Positions 44,252 to 63,876 of a DNA stretch of 64,000 bases are shown piece by piece. Within the stretch, counting starts at the first letter, position 1, and each line of letters begins with the position of its first letter. The stretch is from contig NC_008786.1 of NCBI RefSeq assembly GCF_000015565.1, forward strand, positions 2,914,001 to 2,978,000, given 5' to 3'. The notes under the pieces are model-generated. The model made no database searches. It had not been told where the DNA came from and saw nothing but the letters and a program-made list of their open reading frames with translations. A program made the translations under genes and the position numbers. This stretch comes from Verminephrobacter eiseniae EF01-2 (GTDB taxonomy: Bacteria > Pseudomonadota > Gammaproteobacteria > Burkholderiales > Burkholderiaceae_C).

Positions 44252-45085
44252 GGGCGTGTTAACAATCAAGTAATCCAGATATAAGTACAAACCAGATTGA
44301 GAAACGACAGGTAGTTACGCGCCAGCTTTTCATAACGAGTTGCGATTCTTCGGAATTGCTTGATCCGATTAAAAAAACGCTCGACCAAATTGCGCTCCTT
44401 ATACAGATGTCGATCATAACTTCGCTGCACCACACGATTGCGCCTGGGTGGAATGACCGCCGTCGCACCAGCGACCTGAATGCTGTCAATCAGGGCATCG
44501 GCATCGTAGCCCTTGTCAGCCAGTACCGCATCGGCTTTCAAGCCTTCCAACAGCGACTTGGCTTGTGTAATATCGGCTACCTCGCCACCAGTGAGCAGCC
44601 AACGCACTGGGCTACCGAGCGCATCGACAACGACGTGAATCTTGCTCGTCCATCCACCACGCGAACGGCCTATTGCCTGTGGCCCCTCTTTTTTTTGGCA
44701 CCAGCAGCGTGTTGATGTGCACGCACCACCGTACTATCGATCATCAGCATTTTCAAATCTCTGTCGCCACTGACAATTTCGCAGACCCGCTGCCATACGC
44801 CCGACTCGCCCCAGCGTTTGAACCGCGTGTATGTCGTGTGCCAGTTGCCCAATTCTGCAGGCAAGTCTCGCCATGGTGAACCCGTGCGCATGATCCACAA
44901 CACCGCTTCCAAAAATAGCCGATTGTCCTGGGCGGTCGCCCCAGGATCGCTCGGCTTACCCGGTAATAACGGAGATAATTTCTCCCATTGTTCATCACAT
45001 AGTAGTTTTCTGACTTCTTGCATCTTGGGCCCCTATTCATTCAAAGATCAAGTATAGACATAACCCATGGATTGTTAACGCGCCC
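44252..45085 (-). mobile_element. IS5-family (IS427-like) element, copy 1
   Basis: The 834-bp element has terminal repeats GGGCGTGTTAACAATC and GATTGTTAACGCGCCC (imperfect inverted pair) and a TA duplication on both sides within CTAG. Another copy with the same encoded proteins lies at 61929-62762. The right TA is at the same time the left target duplication of the IS630-type element. Confidence 0.92.
44266..45023 (-). CDS. IS5-family transposase, two frames joined by -1 frameshift
   Basis: OrfA (45023 down to 44670) starts QEVRKLLCDEQWEKLSPLLP and contains the first catalytic Asp in LKMLMIDSTVVRAHQH. OrfB continues in the -1 frame (PQAIGRSRGGWTSKIH; LADKGYDADALI; RNLVERFFNRIKQFRRIATR), giving the remaining DDE residues. 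The shift site is an A8 run on the coding strand (44689-44696), as in other IS427-group elements. Both halves are intact, so the element may be active. Confidence 0.9.
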
Positions 45086-53372: not shown

Positions 53373-56183
53373 TCAGGAATCTTCAAACTCCGCGCTCCTG
53401 AACTTCAGCACGTTGCAGTTCTCCCTGACGGCGCGCTGTAGCCCCTCATCGAACCCGGTGTCCGAGTTGGCCCGAATCTCGATAGTGATGCTGACATTGA
53501 CGCCGAAGCGCGAGGTGAATTGCCGGACGACCTCGTCGTCCAGACTGGCAAACTGCTCCTTGGCGCGGAGCGGGTTGATCTCGATGCTGCTGTAGAAGCG
53601 CTTCCTGACCGATGGCGGAGCGTCGTCAGCGGGACGGGCTGGACCCTTGGCCCGTGGCAGGCTTGCATCGGGGCCAGTGGTGCCCGGTGCAGGCTCCATG
53701 GCCCTTGCAGCGGCATCTCGTTGGGCATACCCGGCAGCAGTGACTGGTTCGACCAACAGCAGCGATGAATCCAGGGACGGCGAGGCACGCCTGCCGAAAC
53801 TGAAGCCGACATAGCGCCCGTCTTCCTTGCCCTGCGCGAAGCCGAAGAACTCCCGGCTTTCTGCGCCTGCCGCCAGCGTTCGCTGAAAAACCGCGTCGTC
53901 CTTCAGGCGCGGCAGGTAGAGTTGCTGGCAACTCTGCTGCCATACGTTCAGGGCGCTGGTGTCCTTGGCATCGTCCTTCCAGAACCAGTCCTTCAGCACC
54001 TTGGCCAGATGGATCGGCGCCCACTCGCTGATGAGCAGCTCATTTTCCTTGAGCACGCGCTCGATTTCCTGCGACCAGTTCTGCGCGCCGGGGTTGAGCG
54101 GGAAATGCTCCCACTTCACTTCGGACAGGCCCCCGCCTTTCCCATTCATGGGGCGGGCTTCCTGCACCGGCGCGAGCAGCCACTTGCAGGTCTCGCGGAT
54201 CATGCGCCGCACCGTTTCCTCAGCCTGCTCCAGGCTGGCTTGCGCCTGCTTGGCCATCAGGTTGTCGAGGACGATGCGGTTGTCCTTGTAGTCGCTGACG
54301 ATGCTGCGCCAAGCCAGGTGCGTGCGAACGTGATCCTTCAGGCGGCCCACGCTATCGTAGTCCGCCGCCAGGAAGATCAGGCGGTTCTGCTTGAAGCGCG
54401 GCTGCTCGCCACGCTGGTTCAGAATCTCGGTCGCGCGCTCGATGGCCAGGCTCTGGCCGCTCTTGCTGAAGGCCGCGTCCGGCGGCAGCACCACCAACCG
54501 CAGCGCCCAGTCGTCGGGCACATCGCCGCTGCCGGTGAAGATGTGGATGCCGCCGAACACGTCGCGGGCAAAGCTCTTTTGCACGCGCTCGCGGATGGAG
54601 GGGAACAGGTCCTCCCTGTCCTGAAAGCGGCGCTTGCGTTCTTCCATCTCGCGCCGCAGGTTCGGGCGCGTGTCCAGCCAGAAGCGGTTGTTGGCGGCGT
54701 TCAGATAGTGCAGCCGGTCGCCCAGGCGCCGCAGCGCGTCCTTGAACAGGCCGGGTTGCTGTCCCGGCTGGGCCACGCCCAGGATCACGCGCTCCAGTTC
54801 CAGACCGCGCACACCCTGGCTGGATGTGCTGGGCGCGCTGCCCAGAAAGATCGCGCGCGCCGTGCGGCGGCAGGCTTGCACGCTGCCGAAACGGGTGTCC
54901 TTGTTCTCGATCTCCCAGGTCTCCGAACGCTCGCCGTCCACATCGCGCTCGATCACCGGCGGCCAGCCCTGCGGCAGGTAGTAAAGCACCTCGTTCAGCG
55001 TGTCGGCATCCATCAGCGGAAAGCTGCCGGACATGATCAGCAGGTCGTTGTTGCCATCCTTCCACAAGCGGTGAATCACCTTCGCCATCAGCTTCAGCAC
55101 GCCGCGTGTGCGCTGGAAGTTGTCCAACGTCGACCAGTCCTCGTACAGGCGGTCGAACACCTCGGGGTGGATGGGGTAGGCGTGCGTCAAGCGCTTCAGG
55201 TACTTGCTGTCCTGCGTTTCCTGCGGGAAGTCGTCGCGGTTGTCGATGTAGTAGTCCGCGAAGGCCCGGCAGACCGATTCCAGCGCCAACGGGTCGTTGG
55301 TGCTGGAAAACAGCCGCCGGCGCACGATCTCGAACGCCTCCTCGGTGGCCACCGGTTTCCACAGCGCCTGAATCCGGCCAAAGTAGTGCGACAGCGAATC
55401 CAGCGCCTTCTCGCCGCGCTGACTGCCGGCCTCCTTCGCGGACTCCTGCAGCGAGGCCAGCAGCACGGCGGTCGGCACGGCCTTCAGGGCTTCCGTCAGC
55501 GCCTGCACGAAGCTGAGGTTGGAATCGAAGCTGCCGCCCGTCAGCGCCTTGCCCTCCTCGAACTGGCGCACATAGGCCACCAACTCGTCGATCAGGATCA
55601 CGCAGGGCGCATGGCGGCCCAGCAGATCGGCCAGCACATCCTTGCCCGGCGAGGTGCCCGAGGCGTCGGCATCCGCCACCAGCGCGTAGCCCGGCGCCCC
55701 GCCCAGTTGCCAGGCCAGGTCGCCCCACAGCGTGCGGATGCTCTGCCCATCCCTGACCACAGCCTGGTTGGGCGAGGACTTGATGCCGTCCAGCACGGCG
55801 ACGCGCGCGCGGGGCAGTTCGGTCACGCCCGCCGCATCGAGGATGGCGGGCACGCCCTGCAAATCGCTGGCAGGTGCTTCGCCCTTGGCGAGGTGGTAGA
55901 CCGCCAGCATGGTGTGCGTCTTGCCGCCGCCAAAAGCGGTTTGCAACTGAATCACCGGGTCGCCACCTCGGCCAGACAAACGCTTGACCACCGAATCGAG
56001 CAGCAGGCGCATGCCTTCGGTGATGAAGGTGCGCTGGAAGAACAGCGCCGGGTTCTGGTACTCCGCGTTGGCCGTGCCGGCATGCACGCGCGACAGGTCA
56101 GCCGCAAACTCGGCTTGCTGGAATGTTCCCTTCAGCACATCGTCATGCGGGACGGCGATTTCACGCCAGGGTTTAAGTGTCAT
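53373..56183 (-). CDS. DUF499-type P-loop ATPase of the methylase-linked island
   Basis: The 936-residue protein matches the DUF499 family: [20 protein letters not shown] at the start, Walker [11 protein letters not shown] (82-91), Walker [13 protein letters not shown] (194-205) and [20 protein letters not shown]. The C-terminal 150 residues ([40 protein letters not shown]) form the usual small beta domain. DUF499 proteins are known neighbours of DUF1156 methylases in defence islands; their mechanism is not settled. It is the last gene of a four-gene minus-strand operon and overlaps the AlbA_2 gene by four bases. Confidence 0.85.
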
Positions 56184-57451
56184 GGCTGGGCCTCCGGATT
56201 CGCTGCCGGAATGACAAGAAGAAGCTCGCTCTGATCAATCATTCGGTAATGTGCTGGCTTGCCGCCAAGTTCGAGCGTCTCGCGCAAGATGATTGGAACA
56301 CCCTCGCCGCGACGATCCATGATGAAGTTCCGATAGGGCGCGAAGCTCGAGTCTTCCATCGGACAACGCGCAAGCAGACTGGCGAGGGCCTCATTGCGCG
56401 CGGATTGACGCTCCACCAGGCTCTCCGTATCCATCGTGTTGGGCAACATGCCCGGTGAATAAATTTCGAGGCGATCCGCAAACAGGCGCAGCCGTACCTT
56501 GGCGCCATGAATCGAGTAATCCCGATGCGCCACGGCATTGGTGATGGCTTCAAACACCGCCCGCATCGAGAACTGCGGCATATCCACACGCCCGCCATGC
56601 TGTTGCTTGAAGGCGGCGACTTGCATGTTCTTGCGCACAAAGGCGCAGGCAGCATGAATTTGCCGATCAAGCGGGCCGGTCATATCGCTTGCATCGATCT
56701 GGTAGGCGGACTCCCCTTGCGGCACCACCGTCGTGCCCTGATACGCAACCGCCTGGATATAGGCAGAAGGCAGAAATTCCTGAGGCCGTTCGCTGCCCAG
56801 CAACAACCCCGCAACCGTTGGCCGCCAAGCTCCATCATCGTCCTGCGCGGCCATCGCCAGCTTGCGCAACGCAACTTCACGCGGCGCTGCGCCTTCGCTC
56901 ACCACGAAACGACGCCACAAGTCTTCGCACAGAGGCTCCAACGTCGCGCCGGGAACGGGCATTTCATCAAACCGGATCAAGCGCGACTGGCTGCGTTGCT
57001 GGAACAGTCGCGCCAGTTGATCTGGAGGAATGGGCCGCCTGGAAGAACCCACGCGCTGCAAATAACCGCCGGGACTTTGATGCACGAACAAGCTGCGCTT
57101 GACCTCGACACGGATGACAGGCTGCTCGATGCCTCCCGCATCGGGCAGGGTCAGGCGCTCGATGATGGGGGCCAGCGGCGGCTTGATGGATTGTTCACAG
57201 GCTTCACGCAGCACAGTCTCCACCGCATCGAGCTTATCCAGTTCGATGCCGATTACTGTACGGCTGGTGTCCTCCACTCCCAGCAACAGCACGCCGCCCG
57301 CGCTATTGGCAAAGGCGGCCAATTCGTTGGCCACCCCATCTTGCGTTGGCCCACGGACTTTGCCTCCGGCGAACTTCACTTCTTTCATCTCCAGAAAACT
57401 GTCTTCGCCCAGACGGATTTTTTCCAGCAGTTCGCTGCGGGTTGCCAACAT
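56180..57451 (-). CDS. AlbA_2/Schlafen-like and GHKL ATPase-domain protein
   Basis: The 423-residue protein begins with an AlbA_2 (Schlafen-type) domain: [13 protein letters not shown] (15-27), [20 protein letters not shown] and the following VED. The C-terminal part has a HATPase_c_4-like N-box [11 protein letters not shown] (302-312) and [16 protein letters not shown] six bases before the ATG decides the start over an in-frame ATG 16 codons upstream. It begins just past the stop of the PHP-SMC gene and overlaps the DUF499 gene by four bases. Such proteins act as regulators or nucleic-acid sensors; here it may be the sensor or switch of the module (inference). Confidence 0.82.
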
Positions 57452-57452
57452 C

Positions 57453-60242
57453 TCAAACCTCCGTTCCCAGACGCTTCCAGCGCCGTGAAAATGCTTCATG
57501 CCCGCCCTCCATCACGCGGCACACTTCGCGGCGCACCTTCGATTCCTGCAATGCGCCGCTTTGCTGCACGAAACACTGTCCACGTCCAAACCCCATCAGA
57601 TGCACCAGTTCCGCATCGCCATTGACCACGACATTCGGGTTGTGGGTGACGACGATGAGTTGGCGGCGCAGCTTGTTCTCCCGAATCTGCCGCACGATCA
57701 GGTCATAGATCAGGTGGTTGTCGAGATCGTCTTCAGGCTGGTCGAGAACGATGGGTTCTTCCCCGAAAGCAAGCAAGAAGGCCAGCAAGGCGGCTGAACG
57801 CTGTCCTTGCGACCCTCGACTGATAGGGTGCCAAGCCTCGTCACGCCGGTACTCGATGCGCAAATCATCTTCCGGAAACCAGGCCAGCACATGGTCAGCA
57901 AACTCCGGCTTTTCACGCTTGCGCTGCAAGTAATTTCGGAAATGCCCGCCCAAAGCCAAATCGTCCGGTGCACCCCCACCTAGCACACCTAGCAATTGCT
58001 GTTTGGCGGCAGTCACCGCAGCTACCTTTCCCGCATCATCCGCCCGCGCCAGCGTGAATGCCATCCCGCCCGAAGGCTCGCCATTTTCAACCTTGAGGAT
58101 ATCGTCCTCGAATCGGTTGTCCGTCACATCGATCAATTCGCGCAATTCACGCTCGATCTGGCGCGGCCCGAAGCCGAAGGGCGCGACTGCAATGCGCACC
58201 TGCGTGTTGTTGGTCAAGGCGCTCCGTATGAAGGACTGTCGCGCTTGCGTGATGCTTTGACGCTTTTCCGCAAGCAGTTTTTGTTGTGCTTCGATCTGCT
58301 TCGCCAGTTCCTGGCGGTCTGATTTCATCTTCTGGAGTGCTTTGTGCTGCGTTTCCAGTTGCTGTTTTTCCTGCGTCAGCCGGGCAAACGCTTGCGGGTC
58401 GCTCACACCCTGCGCTGCGAACTGCTGTTGCAAGGCTGCATGCGCTTGCCGGGCGGCTTGAGCGCGTGCTTTCCATTGCGCGTGGCGGGCATCTTTTTGC
58501 AGGGTCTCGATCAACGCATCGAGCTTGCGCGCCTGCTCTTGCAAACCGGCGCGAACCTGTTCGACCTGCGCATCCGCATCCTTGCGCCAAGCCAACAGAT
58601 CGGCGTCCTGTTCCGTGAAGTGCTGGCCGGGCCAATCGTCCAGGACGATCTGCTCGGGCAATGCTGCAATGCGCTGCGCACCGTCGCGCAACTGCTCGAA
58701 CAAATTGCTCACCTCGCGTTCCTGGTGTTGCGCCTGCGCGTAAGCACGCAGCACCGTTGCATGGTCGGCCTGCGACAGTGCCGCCAACTTCTTGCCCGCT
58801 TCATCCAGCCTGCGCTCGACTTCGGCTTGCCCGGCCAACTTACCGTCCAGTTCACGCAAGCGGGCACGCTGGGTGAAAAATGTGCGCCGCGCTTCCTCAA
58901 GCACCTGTTTCAGTGGTTCGACATTGCCGGCTTCATCGATGATGGCAAGCAATGTTTGCCGCCCACTGCCCGCCAGGGCAGCGATCTGCCCCTGCGAGAA
59001 GATGCGCAAGGGAAACCGCGCCGCATTCACGCTTTGGCTGGGGGATTGTTGCCATTGCCCGTTGCGCCACTCCTGCACCTCCGCGCCTTGCCCATTGGCA
59101 GACCAGGACAGGCGTAGCCGATCATCGTCGTGCTGCCATTCCAGCCGGATCACGGTTTCGGCCCGCAATGCGCCCTTGCCATCGCGCCCGGTGGCAACCT
59201 TGCGAAACTCGTCGAAATGCGCACGCGGCTCGCTATCCTGCCCCAATGCCGTCAATTCCTGAACGCGCCCCGCCGCCAGCCGCAGGCCATGCACCACCGT
59301 GGATTTGCCTGTGCCGCGCCCGCCGACGACGGCATTGAAAAAGGGTGAGCAATCCAGCCTTGCAACCTGGCCGTTGCCCATGTAGCGCGCGTTTTCGATT
59401 TCAACGCCCGTAATGATGTGCGCGGGGAGCTTGAACGGGTCGAACGCCCCTTCATCGCTGCGCCGTATCGACACGCCATTGCCATCCAGCAATGCCAGCC
59501 GCAGCCCTTCCAGTGTGGGGCTGGCCATTTTCACCCAGGTGTAGGCAGACCCCGGTGCCTGTGCGCTTTGGAAGCTGTGGCAATCGCTGCCCAATACTTT
59601 CGCCAGGCGAGGCTCATCAGTCGCCACGCATTGCGGCCAAGGGGTGTTGCCATTGCCCCATTCCACAGCCAACAAGCCTTCCACGCCCATGGCCTGTCGC
59701 AGCGTATTGGCATCCACCTCGCTTTGTTTTGTGTTCGGCTTGCATTGCAGCAATCCTTTGTCTTTATCGGCATGGGCGGGAATGGGTACGGCCCCCGCAG
59801 TCAGGATGGCCTGAATCACCTCGGCAATCCCTCGGCTTGTCACGGCATCGCTGTCGCCCTTGGTGCCCTGATAACCAACAGCGCCCAGCAGCGTGTCAAT
59901 ATCACTGGTCGTCACGGCGGGGTCGAAAATCGCGAGCACATGCACACCGCCTTGCACGGAAATTTCCACGCCGGGAAACAACGTCAGTTCCCGGAACCCG
60001 GCGGGTGGCTGCGCTTTCATTTGCGCGTAGGCGATTTTGAGCGTATCGACCCACGCCCCGCTGTTGTGGTCGGTGACGGCCACGCAGTCGATTTCGGCAG
60101 CCATATAGCGCAGCAACCAATCCTCGGCAGACAATACCAAACCACCACGATGCCACGGCGTATCGTGCGAAGCCGGTGTGTGGGTGTGAAAATCAAACTT
60201 CCACCAACGGGAACCGGGGTAAGGCCATTTTGTCGTTGTCAC
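57453..60242 (-). CDS. PHP-phosphoesterase/SMC-like ABC ATPase (TrlF-like)
   Basis: The 929-residue protein fuses a PHP metal-dependent phosphoesterase and an SMC/RecN-like ATPase. PHP motifs: FDFHTHTPASHD with His19 and His21, VTDHN (56-60), FPGVEIS, PAHADKDKG (about 155) and GSDCHS (218-223). ATPase: Walker A GGRGTGKST (307-315), a long coiled coil rich in Gln/Ala/Glu (about 430-660), signature ISRGSQGQRS (about 807-816), Walker B IVLDQPEDDL. The GTG start follows TTGGAGACAGCGC. PHP domains hydrolyse phosphodiesters or phosphomonoesters, so a DNA- or RNA-loading nuclease is plausible. It starts 14 bases after the methylase stop. Confidence 0.85.
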   Translation of the reverse strand: MTTTKWPYPGSRWWKFDFHTHTPASHDTPWHRGGLVLSAEDWLLRYMAAEIDCVAVTDHNSGAWVDTLKIAYAQMKAQPPAGFRELTLFPGVEISVQGGVHVLAIFDPAVTTSDIDTLLGAVGYQGTKGDSDAVTSRGIAEVIQAILTAGAVPIPAHADKDKGLLQCKPNTKQSEVDANTLRQAMGVEGLLAVEWGNGNTPWPQCVATDEPRLAKVLGSDCHSFQSAQAPGSAYTWVKMASPTLEGLRLALLDGNGVSIRRSDEGAFDPFKLPAHIITGVEIENARYMGNGQVARLDCSPFFNAVVGGRGTGKSTVVHGLRLAAGRVQELTALGQDSEPRAHFDEFRKVATGRDGKGALRAETVIRLEWQHDDDRLRLSWSANGQGAEVQEWRNGQWQQSPSQSVNAARFPLRIFSQGQIAALAGSGRQTLLAIIDEAGNVEPLKQVLEEARRTFFTQRARLRELDGKLAGQAEVERRLDEAGKKLAALSQADHATVLRAYAQAQHQEREVSNLFEQLRDGAQRIAALPEQIVLDDWPGQHFTEQDADLLAWRKDADAQVEQVRAGLQEQARKLDALIETLQKDARHAQWKARAQAARQAHAALQQQFAAQGVSDPQAFARLTQEKQQLETQHKALQKMKSDRQELAKQIEAQQKLLAEKRQSITQARQSFIRSALTNNTQVRIAVAPFGFGPRQIERELRELIDVTDNRFEDDILKVENGEPSGGMAFTLARADDAGKVAAVTAAKQQLLGVLGGGAPDDLALGGHFRNYLQRKREKPEFADHVLAWFPEDDLRIEYRRDEAWHPISRGSQGQRSAALLAFLLAFGEEPIVLDQPEDDLDNHLIYDLIVRQIRENKLRRQLIVVTHNPNVVVNGDAELVHLMGFGRGQCFVQQSGALQESKVRREVCRVMEGGHEAFSRRWKRLGTEV

Positions 60243-60256
60243 GCGCTGTCTCCAAA

Positions 60257-61928
60257 TCAAATTTCCAACTGCCCTTGAGAGCCTAACATACCCGCCTCGC
60301 CAGCGGCCTGTTCGATGGCGCTCCACGCCGTGACCAGTTCGTTATAGGCGCGGGCATCTTCGGCCCAGCCCTTGCGCTCGCACAGCGTGTACAGCCGATA
60401 AGCCAGCGCACGCAGGGGGTCGGCCTGGGCGGGCATGCGTGCCAGCAGCGCACCGGCGGTGGATTCACCGTCCTGATTCAAGGCGCGGATGAGTTGGTGC
60501 AGGGCCTCCCATACGGACACACGGGCGTCGGTATCGGGCGACCAGTCACGCGGCAGTTCGGCCCATTTCAGCAAGCGCAGATTGCCGCCGCTGCTCTGTA
60601 CCGTGCCGCCGTCCACCAGCCCGCCGACACTGGTGCCTTTGGCGCGCGCCAGCACATCGGCTGTGCCGAATTTGCCCGAGGCCCAACCCTCGGCTGCAAA
60701 CCAGTGCAGGCAAAACTGGGTGTTGTGGTCGAAATCATCTTCAGCGAAAAAACGGTTGATCAATTGCAGCGCTGTCTTGACACGCATCGGCGTGCCATCG
60801 GCTTCGAGCACGGCGGCGTATTGGCTGAAAATCGCCATGCCGGGGCCGATGATGGCCTGGCTCAAATCGACTGGCGCTACCGGAGAATTGATGCCACCAC
60901 GGGTCATGCCCTGTAGTGCTTCTGGTAGCGTTGCGTTGAGTTCGCGCAGAAATTCGCGGCGGCTGACGGTGGCGGCATTTGCAACACGCTTGCGGCAGAC
61001 CAGTACGATGCTGGAAGCCAGTGCGTTGGTGCCTGAGCCGATCATGCGGTTTCCCATTTCGGTACGCATTGGCCAGGTGCCGGTGATGGCAAAGCCTGCG
61101 CGCAGCACCGCATCCAGAAAAGTCTCCCACCCGGTGCTGGAGGTGCCCGCATCGTCTTTGCTCTCGCTTTGCTTGAAGGCGTAATAGATGGTGACCGGGA
61201 AGGCCGGATGCGCCTGTGTCGCCAGATTGTGCATGGCATGCGTCATGCCATCCAGAAAAAAGGCTTCGGCCTGTTCCTTGCCTCCGTGGCGGTAAGGCGT
61301 GGCGACCAATTCTTCGGCTTTGGGCACGGCCAGTGTGGTATAGAGGTCAGGGAAGATGGGCCGCAAGCTCTTGCGCAGCCAGACATAGAAGAAGTCAGAC
61401 AGGTCTGCGTAGCCGATATTGTCGTAATAGGGCGGGTCGCTGGAGATGACCTTTTGCCGTGAAATTACTTGCGATTGCGCATCGCATTGAACAGCAAATC
61501 CGGCGGCTCTGGCGGGGAGATATTCGCGCACAACCCTTACACCTTGGTCGATAGCGTTCTCATAACTGCCTGCGGAGCTTTCAATAAAATTCGCTTCTGC
61601 AAAGTCCCACACCATCGGTATTGCTTGCCGACCGAACGTATTTCTGATGCTGTCACGCGATGTATCCCATCCACAAATAGACGACCCACGATCACACATT
61701 TTGTTAATCGCAAACGCCAAATACACCCCCACCGCCTCACCATAAGCCGTAGCCGCTGCGCCACCCGCATCCAATCCAAGGCCGTCGTCTGGCATCCCGG
61801 CGGCACGGGCGTCGGCTTGAACTTTGGCGATGGCTTTTGGAACCAGATCAGAAAATGTGGTGAGGGCTACCAATTGGCGTGGGGTGAAGAGTTCATGCCA
61901 TTGAGTAAACCCATAACCACGGCCGCTA
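60257..61928 (-). pseudogene. DUF1156-type DNA methyltransferase, N-terminus removed by IS5
   Basis: About 555 codons of the C-terminal part remain. The catalytic motif [22 protein letters not shown] is present, as are [13 protein letters not shown] and the C-terminal helical domain. DUF1156 methylases have some 900-1000 residues and begin with a Phe/Pro-rich DUF1156 segment and a SAM-binding motif; both are missing. The IS5-type copy 2 lies exactly at the break (TA target), so an in-frame ATG inside the IS would add five codons at most. The protein, if made, should lack SAM binding. As first gene of the operon it probably carried the promoter too. Confidence 0.85.
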
Positions 61929-62762
61929 AGGCGTGTTAACAATCAAGTAATCCAGATATAAGTACAAACCAGATTGAGAAACGACAGGTAGTTACGCGCC
62001 AGCTTTTCATAACGAGTTGCGATTCTTCGGAATTGCTTGATCCGATTAAAAAAACGCTCGACCAAATTGCGCTCCTTATACAGATGTCGATCATAACTTC
62101 GCTGCACCACACGATTGCGCCTGGGTGGAATGACCGCCGTCGCACCAGCGACCTGAATGCTGTCAATCAGGGCATCGGCATCGTAGCCCTTGTCAGCCAG
62201 TACCGCATCGGCTTTCAAGCCTTCCAACAGCGACTTGGCTTGTGTAATATCGGCTACCTCGCCACCAGTGAGCAGCCAACGCACTGGGCTACCGAGCGCA
62301 TCGACAACGACGTGAATCTTGCTCGTCCATCCACCACGCGAACGGCCTATTGCCTGTGGCCCCTCTTTTTTTTGGCACCAGCAGCGTGTTGATGTGCACG
62401 CACCACCGTACTATCGATCATCAGCATTTTCAAATCTCTGTCGCCACTGACAATTTCGCAGACCCGCTGCCATACGCCCGACTCGCCCCAGCGTTTGAAC
62501 CGCGTGTATGTCGTGTGCCAGTTGCCCAATTCTGCAGGCAAGTCTCGCCATGGTGAACCCGTGCGCATGATCCACAACACCGCTTCCAAAAATAGCCGAT
62601 TGTCCTGGGCGGTCGCCCCAGGATCGCTCGGCTTACCCGGTAATAACGGAGATAATTTCTCCCATTGTTCATCACATAGTAGTTTTCTGACTTCTTGCAT
62701 CTTGGGCCCCTATTCATTCAAAGATCAAGTATAGACATAACCCATGGATTGTTAACGCGCCC
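61929..62762 (-). mobile_element. IS5-family (IS427-like) element, copy 2
   Basis: The 834-bp copy has the same length and encoded proteins as the element at 44252-45085 and the same orientation, except that the first base of its left end is A rather than G. TA flanks both ends. On the left it interrupts the methylase; on the right its TA is shared with the IS630-type element 2. Confidence 0.92.
61943..62700 (-). CDS. IS5-family transposase, two frames joined by -1 frameshift (copy 2)
   Basis: OrfA and OrfB have the same sequences as in copy 1, with the A8 slippery run at 62366-62373. The DDE residues lie in LKMLMIDSTVV, LADKGYDADALI and RNLVERFFNRIKQ. Intact, so it may supply transposase for both copies. 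Confidence 0.9.
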
Positions 62763-62764
62763 TA

Positions 62765-63876
62765 GTCCACTGAATCATTGAATAAGCACCTGTCGAATGC
62801 GCCTTGATGGATCGTCGTACTTCCACTTGATGGGCTTGGGATTCTTGTTGTGTTCGCGGATGTAGCGCATCAGCTTTCGCCCCAAGTCCTGCACCGAGGT
62901 AAATACGCCGCGGGTTATGACATCACGCTGAATGCGCGAGAACCAGTTCTCCACTTGGTTCAGCCACGACGAGTACGTGGGTGTGAAGTGCATGCGCACG
63001 TTGCCGTGCCGTACAAGGAAGTCCCGCACGCGCTGGGTCTTGTGGCTGCTGACGTTGTCGCAGATGACATGGATCTCCTGCCGCTCGCACTGGCTGGCGA
63101 CGATGTCGGTAAGGAAGGCAACGAATTGCTCGCTGGTGTGGCGCGCTGCGGTCTTGCCCAGCACCTGGCCGGTGGCGGTGTTCAGCGCCGCGAACAAGCT
63201 CAGTGTGCCGTTTCTCTTGTACTCGAATCCGTGGCTCTCGGCACGCCCTGACGACAGCGGCAGCATCCGGTCCTTGCGATCGAGTGCCTGGATGGCGGTC
63301 TTCTCATCGACGCAGAACACCACGGCGTGCGCCGGTGGATTGAGGTACAGCCCGATCACATCGGCCGCCTTGGTCTCGAAGTCCGGGTCGTTGGACACCA
63401 TGTGTCGATCCAGTCTTTGCGGTCGCACGTTGTGCTTGCGCCAGATGCGCTGAACCGCAGAAACGGATACGTCACCAAGTTCAGCCGACAGCTTGTAGCT
63501 GCTCCAGTGCGTGGAGCCATCGCTCGGCTTGCGCCTGAGCGTGTAGTTGAGCACCCGCGCCTCCAGTTTGGCCGGTGGCTGCTTGGGCGCGCGTCCCGGA
63601 TGCCGGGCGTACATGCCCGCCAGGCGCTCGCTGAGAAAGCGGCTGGACCAGCGGGAGATGAAACGCGAGTCGCATTCGAGCCTTTGCATGATGGTGTCGC
63701 GCGACTGACCCTCTTCGAGCATGAGGATCAGCTTGGCCCTGCGCACGTCCGCCACGCGCGCCGTGCGGCTACGCGTGGCGGTCAGCAATTTGTCTCGCTC
63801 GGCGTCGGTCAGATTCATTTTTCCCATGTGTTGCATTTAACCACAAATGGGGTGTTGTTTCAATGGTGCAGTGAAC
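62765..63876 (-). mobile_element. IS630-type element 2, intact
   Basis: The 1112-bp element has imperfect inverted ends (GTCCACTGAATCATTGAA at the left, GTTCACTGCACCATTGAA read from the right) bordered by TA. It differs from IS630-type element 1 in both ends and transposase sequence. It is inserted in a nitronate monooxygenase-like gene. Confidence 0.9.
62775..63836 (-). CDS. IS630-family transposase
   Basis: The 353-residue protein has an N-terminal helix-turn-helix (LILMLEEGQSRDTIMQRL), a second winged region (YKLSAELGDVSVSAVQRIW) and the DDE catalytic core: VFCVDEKTAIQALDR, VICDNVSSHKTQRV and TPTYSSWLNQVENWFSRIQ. The frame is intact and of normal length, so the element is probably functional. 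Confidence 0.94.
   Translation of the reverse strand: MQHMGKMNLTDAERDKLLTATRSRTARVADVRRAKLILMLEEGQSRDTIMQRLECDSRFISRWSSRFLSERLAGMYARHPGRAPKQPPAKLEARVLNYTLRRKPSDGSTHWSSYKLSAELGDVSVSAVQRIWRKHNVRPQRLDRHMVSNDPDFETKAADVIGLYLNPPAHAVVFCVDEKTAIQALDRKDRMLPLSSGRAESHGFEYKRNGTLSLFAALNTATGQVLGKTAARHTSEQFVAFLTDIVASQCERQEIHVICDNVSSHKTQRVRDFLVRHGNVRMHFTPTYSSWLNQVENWFSRIQRDVITRGVFTSVQDLGRKLMRYIREHNKNPKPIKWKYDDPSRRIRQVLIQ

Follow-up and report, generated by a model that had tools for sequence, protein, structure and literature searches.

An intact TrlF–SLFN gene pair between the remains of an Hma operon in Verminephrobacter eiseniae EF01-2

Organization of the four-gene locus

Four tightly packed genes of Verminephrobacter eiseniae EF01-2 raise the question of whether they form one anti-phage system or two. 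They lie in a 64,000-nucleotide (nt) stretch of contig NC_008786.1 (positions 2,914,001 to 2,978,000; hereafter the window), where four open reading frames (ORFs) on the minus strand run in one direction and span positions 53373–61928. The original prediction, made from the sequence alone, described them as a DUF1156 methylase, a PHP–SMC ATPase, an AlbA_2/GHKL ATPase, and a DUF499 ATPase acting together as a restriction-like system. By sequence comparison, the locus is composed of two nested units. The outer genes are hmaB and hmaC of a broken helicase-methylase-ATPase (Hma) operon, with hmaB cut at an insertion sequence (IS) and hmaA absent from the locus, and the inner genes encode a separate module of two intact proteins, TrlF and the Schlafen-type protein SLFN, which recur as a pair inside and outside Hma. 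We consider it probable that the locus is a decayed Hma operon with an intact TrlF–SLFN module embedded in the HmaB–HmaC gap and that the pair is a co-expressed back-up defence.

The genes are, from upstream to downstream, an hmaB fragment (60257–61928), trlF (57453–60242), slfn (56180–57451), and hmaC (53373–56183). In this order, neighbouring genes are separated by 14 nt and 1 nt, and the last two overlap by 4 nt, in agreement with the earlier description (gaps of 14 bases or less or four-base overlaps on one strand). trlF starts with GTG, its ORF being open from 60326. The slfn ORF is open from 57499, and its start was set at the internal ATG (57451) because most of the listed relatives consist of 420–425 amino acid residues and begin there.

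Decay of the Hma carrier

HmaC is of full length. It matched the PADLOC HmaC profile PDLC00662 with 1524 bits over positions 1–940 of 941 and Pfam DUF499 with an E-value of 4.5e-27, and the alignment showed that Walker A (GGGKT) and Walker B are retained, which identifies it as the DUF499-type AAA+ ATPase of Hma. Its best named match was from Verminephrobacter eiseniae (90%). In contrast to HmaC, the HmaB gene product, a C-terminal part of an N6-adenine methylase, matched PDLC00660 with 982 bits over profile positions 414–966 of 967 only; its first approximately 405 residues are gone. Among 60 full-length HmaB relatives, a DPFAGGG-like motif I was found in 59 and DPPY in all 60. The window fragment contains DPPY and lacks both the S-adenosylmethionine (SAM) motif I and the DUF1156 domain. 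The prediction of a DUF1156 domain was incorrect, and self-DNA marking, which had also been proposed, is not to be expected from an HmaB without SAM motif I. The assignment of the locus to defence, the pairing of DUF1156 and DUF499 proteins, and the coherence of the two middle genes as a pair were borne out. The outer genes are HmaB and HmaC of the known Hma system, which was named by Payne 2021 (PMC8565338) and recast as a Type-1 BREX (bacteriophage exclusion)-related system by Rakesh & Krishnan 2026 (PMC12839542).

The missing part of HmaB was searched for in the 5.60-Mb assembly of two contigs. A profile search for DUF1156 gave no match anywhere in the genome, and residues 1–616 of a relative's HmaB matched only the part in the island (412–616), apart from two short matches to residues 565–614. 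hmaB stops at the edge of an IS5-family element with a two-ORF transposase (61929–62762; NF033580), which is adjoined by an IS630-family element (62765–63876; NF033545); both are flanked by TA on both sides, with the ends read by eye from the sequence. Counting the copy next to hmaB, the IS5-type element is present in full length six times in the genome, at 99–100% identity; one of the others is identical to the copy next to hmaB (100%), has the same orientation, and lies 17 kb away, at 44259–45080 of the window.

HmaA was located upstream of HmaB in the 53 loci where both were found. No HmaA match was obtained in the window or in the 14 kb beyond it. As is usual for helicases, the HmaA profile found matches in each of the 14 control genomes, and only the two strongest loci in the present genome were used. 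These two pieces, at C2:3115364–3118069 and C2:3145312–3147750, lie 140–170 kb from the island and are 79–86% identical to a relative's HmaA. Both are broken; one lacks the N-terminal part and Walker A, and the other has an internal gap. They suggest an older or dispersed Hma operon. With HmaB beheaded and HmaA broken and absent from the locus, Hma itself should be dead in this genome. The stretches fetched around the two broken HmaA copies contained no HmaB or HmaC match. Among 47 genomes of the same genus, HmaC was otherwise found in two (G008 and G024), where it is 56% identical and adjoins cargo of the Hma-embedded candidate (HEC) type HEC-02.

TrlF and SLFN are intact

TrlF (929 residues) consists of a PHP phosphoesterase domain and an SMC/ABC-type ATPase, in agreement with the predicted PHP–SMC architecture. 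It matched the TrlF family model NF045780 with 618 bits (cut-off, 350) over profile positions 2–944 of 944 and the PADLOC Ppl model with 432 bits; its score against the Ppl equivalog NF042955 was 518 bits, below the cut-off of 1000. Pfam did not detect a PHP domain in TrlF at 0.001. The domain was accepted nevertheless because residues 1–290, folded alone, gave a PHP fold in a fold search and because H19, H21, H59, E93, H101, H157, D220, and H222, which we take to be the PHP metal ligands, were invariant in 14 sequences. Walker A, Walker B, and the ABC signature were invariant in 18 sequences.

SLFN (423 residues) matched Pfam SLFN_AlbA_2 (59 bits) and HATPase_c_4 (67 bits), confirming the predicted combination of a Schlafen AlbA_2 RNase-like domain and a GHKL domain. 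E16, E21, K23, and D61 are present in the window copy. In 27 aligned sequences, E16 and E21 were invariant and D61 was conserved in at least 90%, and these tri-carboxylate residues line up with the catalytic residues of SLFN13. The AlphaFold2 model had a predicted local distance difference test score of 81.6, with a weak region at 135–158; Schlafen structures were among the Protein Data Bank matches, and the best whole-length fold match was 3lmm, with a large root-mean-square deviation.

These features bear on the view that the remaining genes of this IS-rich region are all decaying and without present function. The IS5 and IS630 elements at the operon cut point, the broken HmaA copies, and the long branch of the window SLFN would fit such a region, but three of the four frames are of full length and their motif residues are kept, and we regard this view as quite improbable. 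The TrlF–SLFN pair may be functional alone in this genome.

On plasmids, TrlF matches were found in 1138 of 72,556 PLSDB records, all below 60% identity, with 354 spanning at least 80% of the query, and SLFN gave no match at E 1e-40 among the same number of records. On an E. coli IncF plasmid (L148, 1317–8865), genes for a DEAD-box helicase, an N6-methylase, and a TrlF of 47% identity follow one another, with no SLFN, and may constitute a three-gene restriction system. Conversely, SLFN relatives of 48% identity without TrlF were observed in two loci (L188 and L189) with a helicase-like stretch upstream, and SLFN of this type may pair with another partner. A second, different Schlafen/AlbA_2-like gene was found close to a TrlF–SLFN pair in L224 (11089–13508) and L211 (7309–13376).

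The HmaB–HmaC gap as a cargo slot

To place the pair among other Hma operons, the best 80 of 158 confirmed HmaC relatives were fetched; 74 contained both HmaB and HmaC and were used, and six without HmaB in the stretch were left out. The HmaB–HmaC gap was shorter than 100 nt in 30 of the 74 loci and longer in 44. Cargo types were assigned by similarity to one representative each, which was scanned, except that the GGCT, PIN, and second DUF262 types were read from the sequence; four loci with more than one cargo (L025, L036, L039, and L043) were counted under each. HEC-02-like, PDC-M61, GmrSD/HEC-05-like, YhcG/PDC-S02, and HEC-01-like cargo was found in 10, 8, 7, 5 (L007 and L028 among them), and 4 loci, respectively, and TrlF with SLFN in 4. 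Another DUF262-type protein occupied the gap in 3 loci, GGCT-like and PIN-like proteins in 2 each, and a further 4 loci had gaps of 266–874 nt without assigned cargo. The window pair is likewise placed between hmaB and hmaC. In two other loci (L010 and L061), TrlF–SLFN adjoins HmaC at a contig end; in L061, both proteins are distant, and TrlF is a C-terminal piece only.

An HmaC tree of 77 rows was built by a quick method with Shimodaira–Hasegawa-like approximate likelihood ratio test support only; loci with several cargoes carried one label, and four loci lacking HmaB and a label were left out. The 10 slot labels required 37 changes on this tree, where the least is 9 and the mean after shuffling was 44.4; none of 200 shuffles was as low, indicating some clustering. 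For TrlF–SLFN, 7 changes were counted for 7 rows against a shuffled mean of 6.8, a scatter like that of shuffled labels; at least 4 changes are required by the starred branches. A clade with 100/100 support in the TrlF tree united the six Hma-embedded copies tested with a solo copy (L210). Judging from these results, cargo seems to move from one Hma backbone to another.

The gap between HmaA and HmaB was also variable, ranging from 0 to 2242 nt in the 53 loci, and is perhaps a second cargo slot. Genes upstream of HmaB include those for a WYL protein and a DUF3644/HEC-08-type protein, for which one representative each was scanned.

The four genes could still have formed one restriction-like system with HmaB as the self-marking enzyme, TrlF as a nuclease that loads onto DNA, SLFN as a nucleotide switch, and HmaC as the source of power. 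Their tight co-directional packing agrees with such a system, as does the recurrence of the order HmaB–TrlF–SLFN–HmaC in L035, L041, and L054 and in L025, where additional cargo is present. L035, from Methylococcus capsulatus str. Texas, contains full-length HmaB, TrlF, SLFN, and HmaC, and its HmaA reaches only partly into the fetched stretch. The four loci are among 74 HmaC relatives with both flanks, and the other gap cargo is interchangeable. The window HmaB lacks motif I, and TrlF–SLFN relatives exist without Hma. As the order is found in 4 of 74 loci, the gap is empty in 30 of 74, and the pair occurs without Hma in BREX, DUF499–DUF1156, and type I and type III systems and alone, the four genes are not one system in our judgment, and we rate a single four-gene system as very improbable.

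Occurrence of the TrlF–SLFN pair beyond Hma

In an even draw of 369 genomes across the class, TrlF was matched at 1e-20 in 24, of which 20 were above the cut-off. An SLFN relative lay directly downstream of 12 of these 20 TrlF genes (the window included), and 8 had none. In an even draw across the phylum, SLFN was found in 36 of 398 genomes from 18 genera, with TrlF directly upstream in 19 of the 30 loci returned. In each of the 64 loci (up to L219, some places being viewed more than once) in which both proteins scored above 60 bits, TrlF preceded SLFN on the same strand, at a distance of no more than 150 nt.

Of the 12 class-draw pairs, nine were placed within or next to a methylation system (Hma, DUF499–DUF1156, BREX, type I, or type III). 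Besides the window pair in the HmaB–HmaC gap of Hma, three pairs lie between PglX and PglZ of BREX (L207, L209, and L219), one between DUF499 and a DUF1156 methylase (L208), one in the HmaA–HmaB gap of a divergent Hma (L212), one directly upstream of a divergent HmaB (L211), and one between the type I S and R genes (L224). The ninth (L226, 338–8149) has a type III-type methylase gene on one side and, on the other, a 460-residue ORF that repeats part of this methylase at 99%, a layout that looks as if the pair arrived with a partial duplication. The remaining three (L218, L223, and L225) are alone. Two loci picked from the phylum search (L213 and L214) contain the pair between PglXI and the helicase of BREX type 3. 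A regular expression for methylase motifs in the context loci was dropped, as it missed known PglX and DUF1156 proteins (L207, L208, L209, and L219). The recurrence of relatives of the pair inside several other methylation-based systems makes it look like a travelling back-up defence.

An alternative is that the pair is a dedicated extra effector of its carrier, in which TrlF replaces or assists the carrier nuclease in degrading DNA flagged by the methylase/ATPase complex and SLFN is a regulator and not an RNase. The PHP nuclease fold of TrlF, the location of nine of the 12 class-draw pairs at methylation systems, and the plasmid-borne TrlF relative of E. coli, which immediately follows a helicase and an N6-methylase and has no SLFN, are all compatible with this alternative. 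However, the core enzymes vary among carriers (Hma, BREX types 1 and 3, DUF499–DUF1156, and type I restriction-modification), solo pairs exist, and SLFN E16 and E21 are kept in all 27 aligned sequences. We therefore consider a carrier-dedicated effector unlikely and prefer the reading of an embedded back-up defence.

Several observations weigh against that reading. The branch leading to the window SLFN is long (0.45), which may reflect relaxed selection, and the SLFN tree did not resolve the Hma copies as a clade, leaving them and L210 in one group with L208 and L209. SLFN was distant (26–32% identity) in 8 of the 12 class-draw pairs and close (at least 54%) in 4; the close-SLFN pairs were embedded in four of four cases (the window included) and the distant-SLFN pairs in five of eight. 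In addition to the 3 of 12 class-draw pairs that are alone, the hand-picked loci L205, L210, L216, and L217 also contain the pair alone; TrlF of L210 lacks part of the PHP domain, and the genes of L209 are frameshifted. Of the eight TrlF genes without SLFN, one adjoins an ORF read as a methylase (L227) and one has a methylase match 7 kb away (L232). The methylase contrast between the pairs and these eight gave a Fisher p of 0.02 (1/8) or 0.07 (2/8, with the window left out), and it is weak because the eight loci were without a PADLOC scan and two are on contigs shorter than 6 kb. Since the window TrlF scored below the NCBI cut-off for Ppl, Ppl biochemistry may not carry over to it. Finally, both the interaction of TrlF with SLFN and RNA cleavage by SLFN are predictions for the pair.

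Proposed mechanism

In intact hosts, Hma would act as a methylation-based first line and TrlF–SLFN as its co-expressed back-up. TrlF, with its PHP nuclease and SMC/ABC ATPase, is kin to Ppl, a 3′-5′ single-stranded DNA exonuclease held off by bound nucleoside triphosphates, and may sense nucleotide depletion or exposed DNA ends. TrlF would restrain SLFN or pass it a signal, and SLFN, gated by its GHKL ATP-binding domain, would cut tRNA or other RNA at the Schlafen tri-carboxylate site. Such RNA cutting could stop the infected cell, so that the back-up would fire when the restriction system is beaten. By analogy, the action would be like that of PARIS, an ABC sensor with a tRNase linked to BREX, built from different parts.

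More broadly, we tentatively propose, while regarding it as less than evenly likely, that TrlF–SLFN represents a widespread anti-phage system of two genes, as yet without a name, which specialises in guarding methylation-based restriction, inserts into gaps of Hma, BREX, and restriction-modification operons, and joins PHP–SMC nucleotide or DNA-end sensing to Schlafen tRNA cleavage. The pair would then be a bacterial two-protein counterpart of vertebrate SLFN11, which joins DNA damage to tRNA cutting in one chain. If our reading of the locus is correct, it would add a concrete two-gene module to the defences living inside other defences, name a recurrent partner for the Schlafen-kinase proteins linked to BREX-like systems, and suggest a testable trigger for bacterial Schlafens. 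The intact pair in a beheaded Hma operon would be a case of cargo outliving its carrier.

Comparison with known systems

Compared with Hma, the window shares HmaB and HmaC homologues, their order and strand, and a full-length HmaC, and differs in the absence of HmaA from the locus, the loss of the N-terminal approximately 405 residues of HmaB, and the two extra genes between them. Hma-embedded candidates (HEC-01, -02, -05, and others), described in PMC12988326, and PADLOC PDC families occupy the same gap, but TrlF–SLFN fits no HEC or PDC model as a system. When each protein was checked against PADLOC 2.0.0, as had been suggested, HmaC, HmaB, and a Ppl-type TrlF were recognized; SLFN had no model of its own family, and there was no system model for the pair, TrlF being covered as the single-gene Ppl. 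TrlF shares the layout of PHP and SMC-like NTPase with this E. coli defence, but it belongs to the broader TrlF family and has a Schlafen partner, whereas Ppl is described as a single gene.

In at least 1017 taxa, Schlafen-kinase auxiliary RNases have been linked to BREX/BR core loci; they resemble SLFN in that a Schlafen domain is fused to a C-terminal histidine-kinase-like domain (PMC12839542). A search of the main text of that paper found neither PHP nor Ppl, and a TrlF partner is thus not named there under those terms. Searches of the available literature on TrlF, PHP, SMC, Schlafen, and phage defence yielded no description of the TrlF–SLFN pair. Judging by the sources searched, embedding as a principle and the individual protein families were known already, and the new element is the recurrent pair across carriers.

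An assignment to Menshen was rejected, as TrlF and SLFN matched no Nsn model (NsnA/B/C) at 0.001, and so was that of TrlF and its relatives with Septu, Gabija, and Lamassu, for which only weak ABC-domain matches were found. Other weak side matches of TrlF were to HEC-01A and PDC-M49A/S06 (33 bits or less) and to AriA profiles (36 bits or less). PARIS, consisting of the OLD-ABC protein AriA and the TOPRIM tRNase AriB, resembles the pair as a two-gene cassette of an ABC-type ATPase and a putative tRNase with a link to BREX-type systems. It differs in that the partner of TrlF is a Schlafen protein and not an AriB TOPRIM protein, an unrelated nuclease, and in that the pair has extra PHP and GHKL domains. 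The placement is also PARIS-like: in three BREX loci, TrlF–SLFN sits in the pglX–pglZ gap, as does the pair of an ATPase and a DUF4435 protein inserted between pglX and pglZ in StySA of S. Typhimurium, according to PMC9009780.

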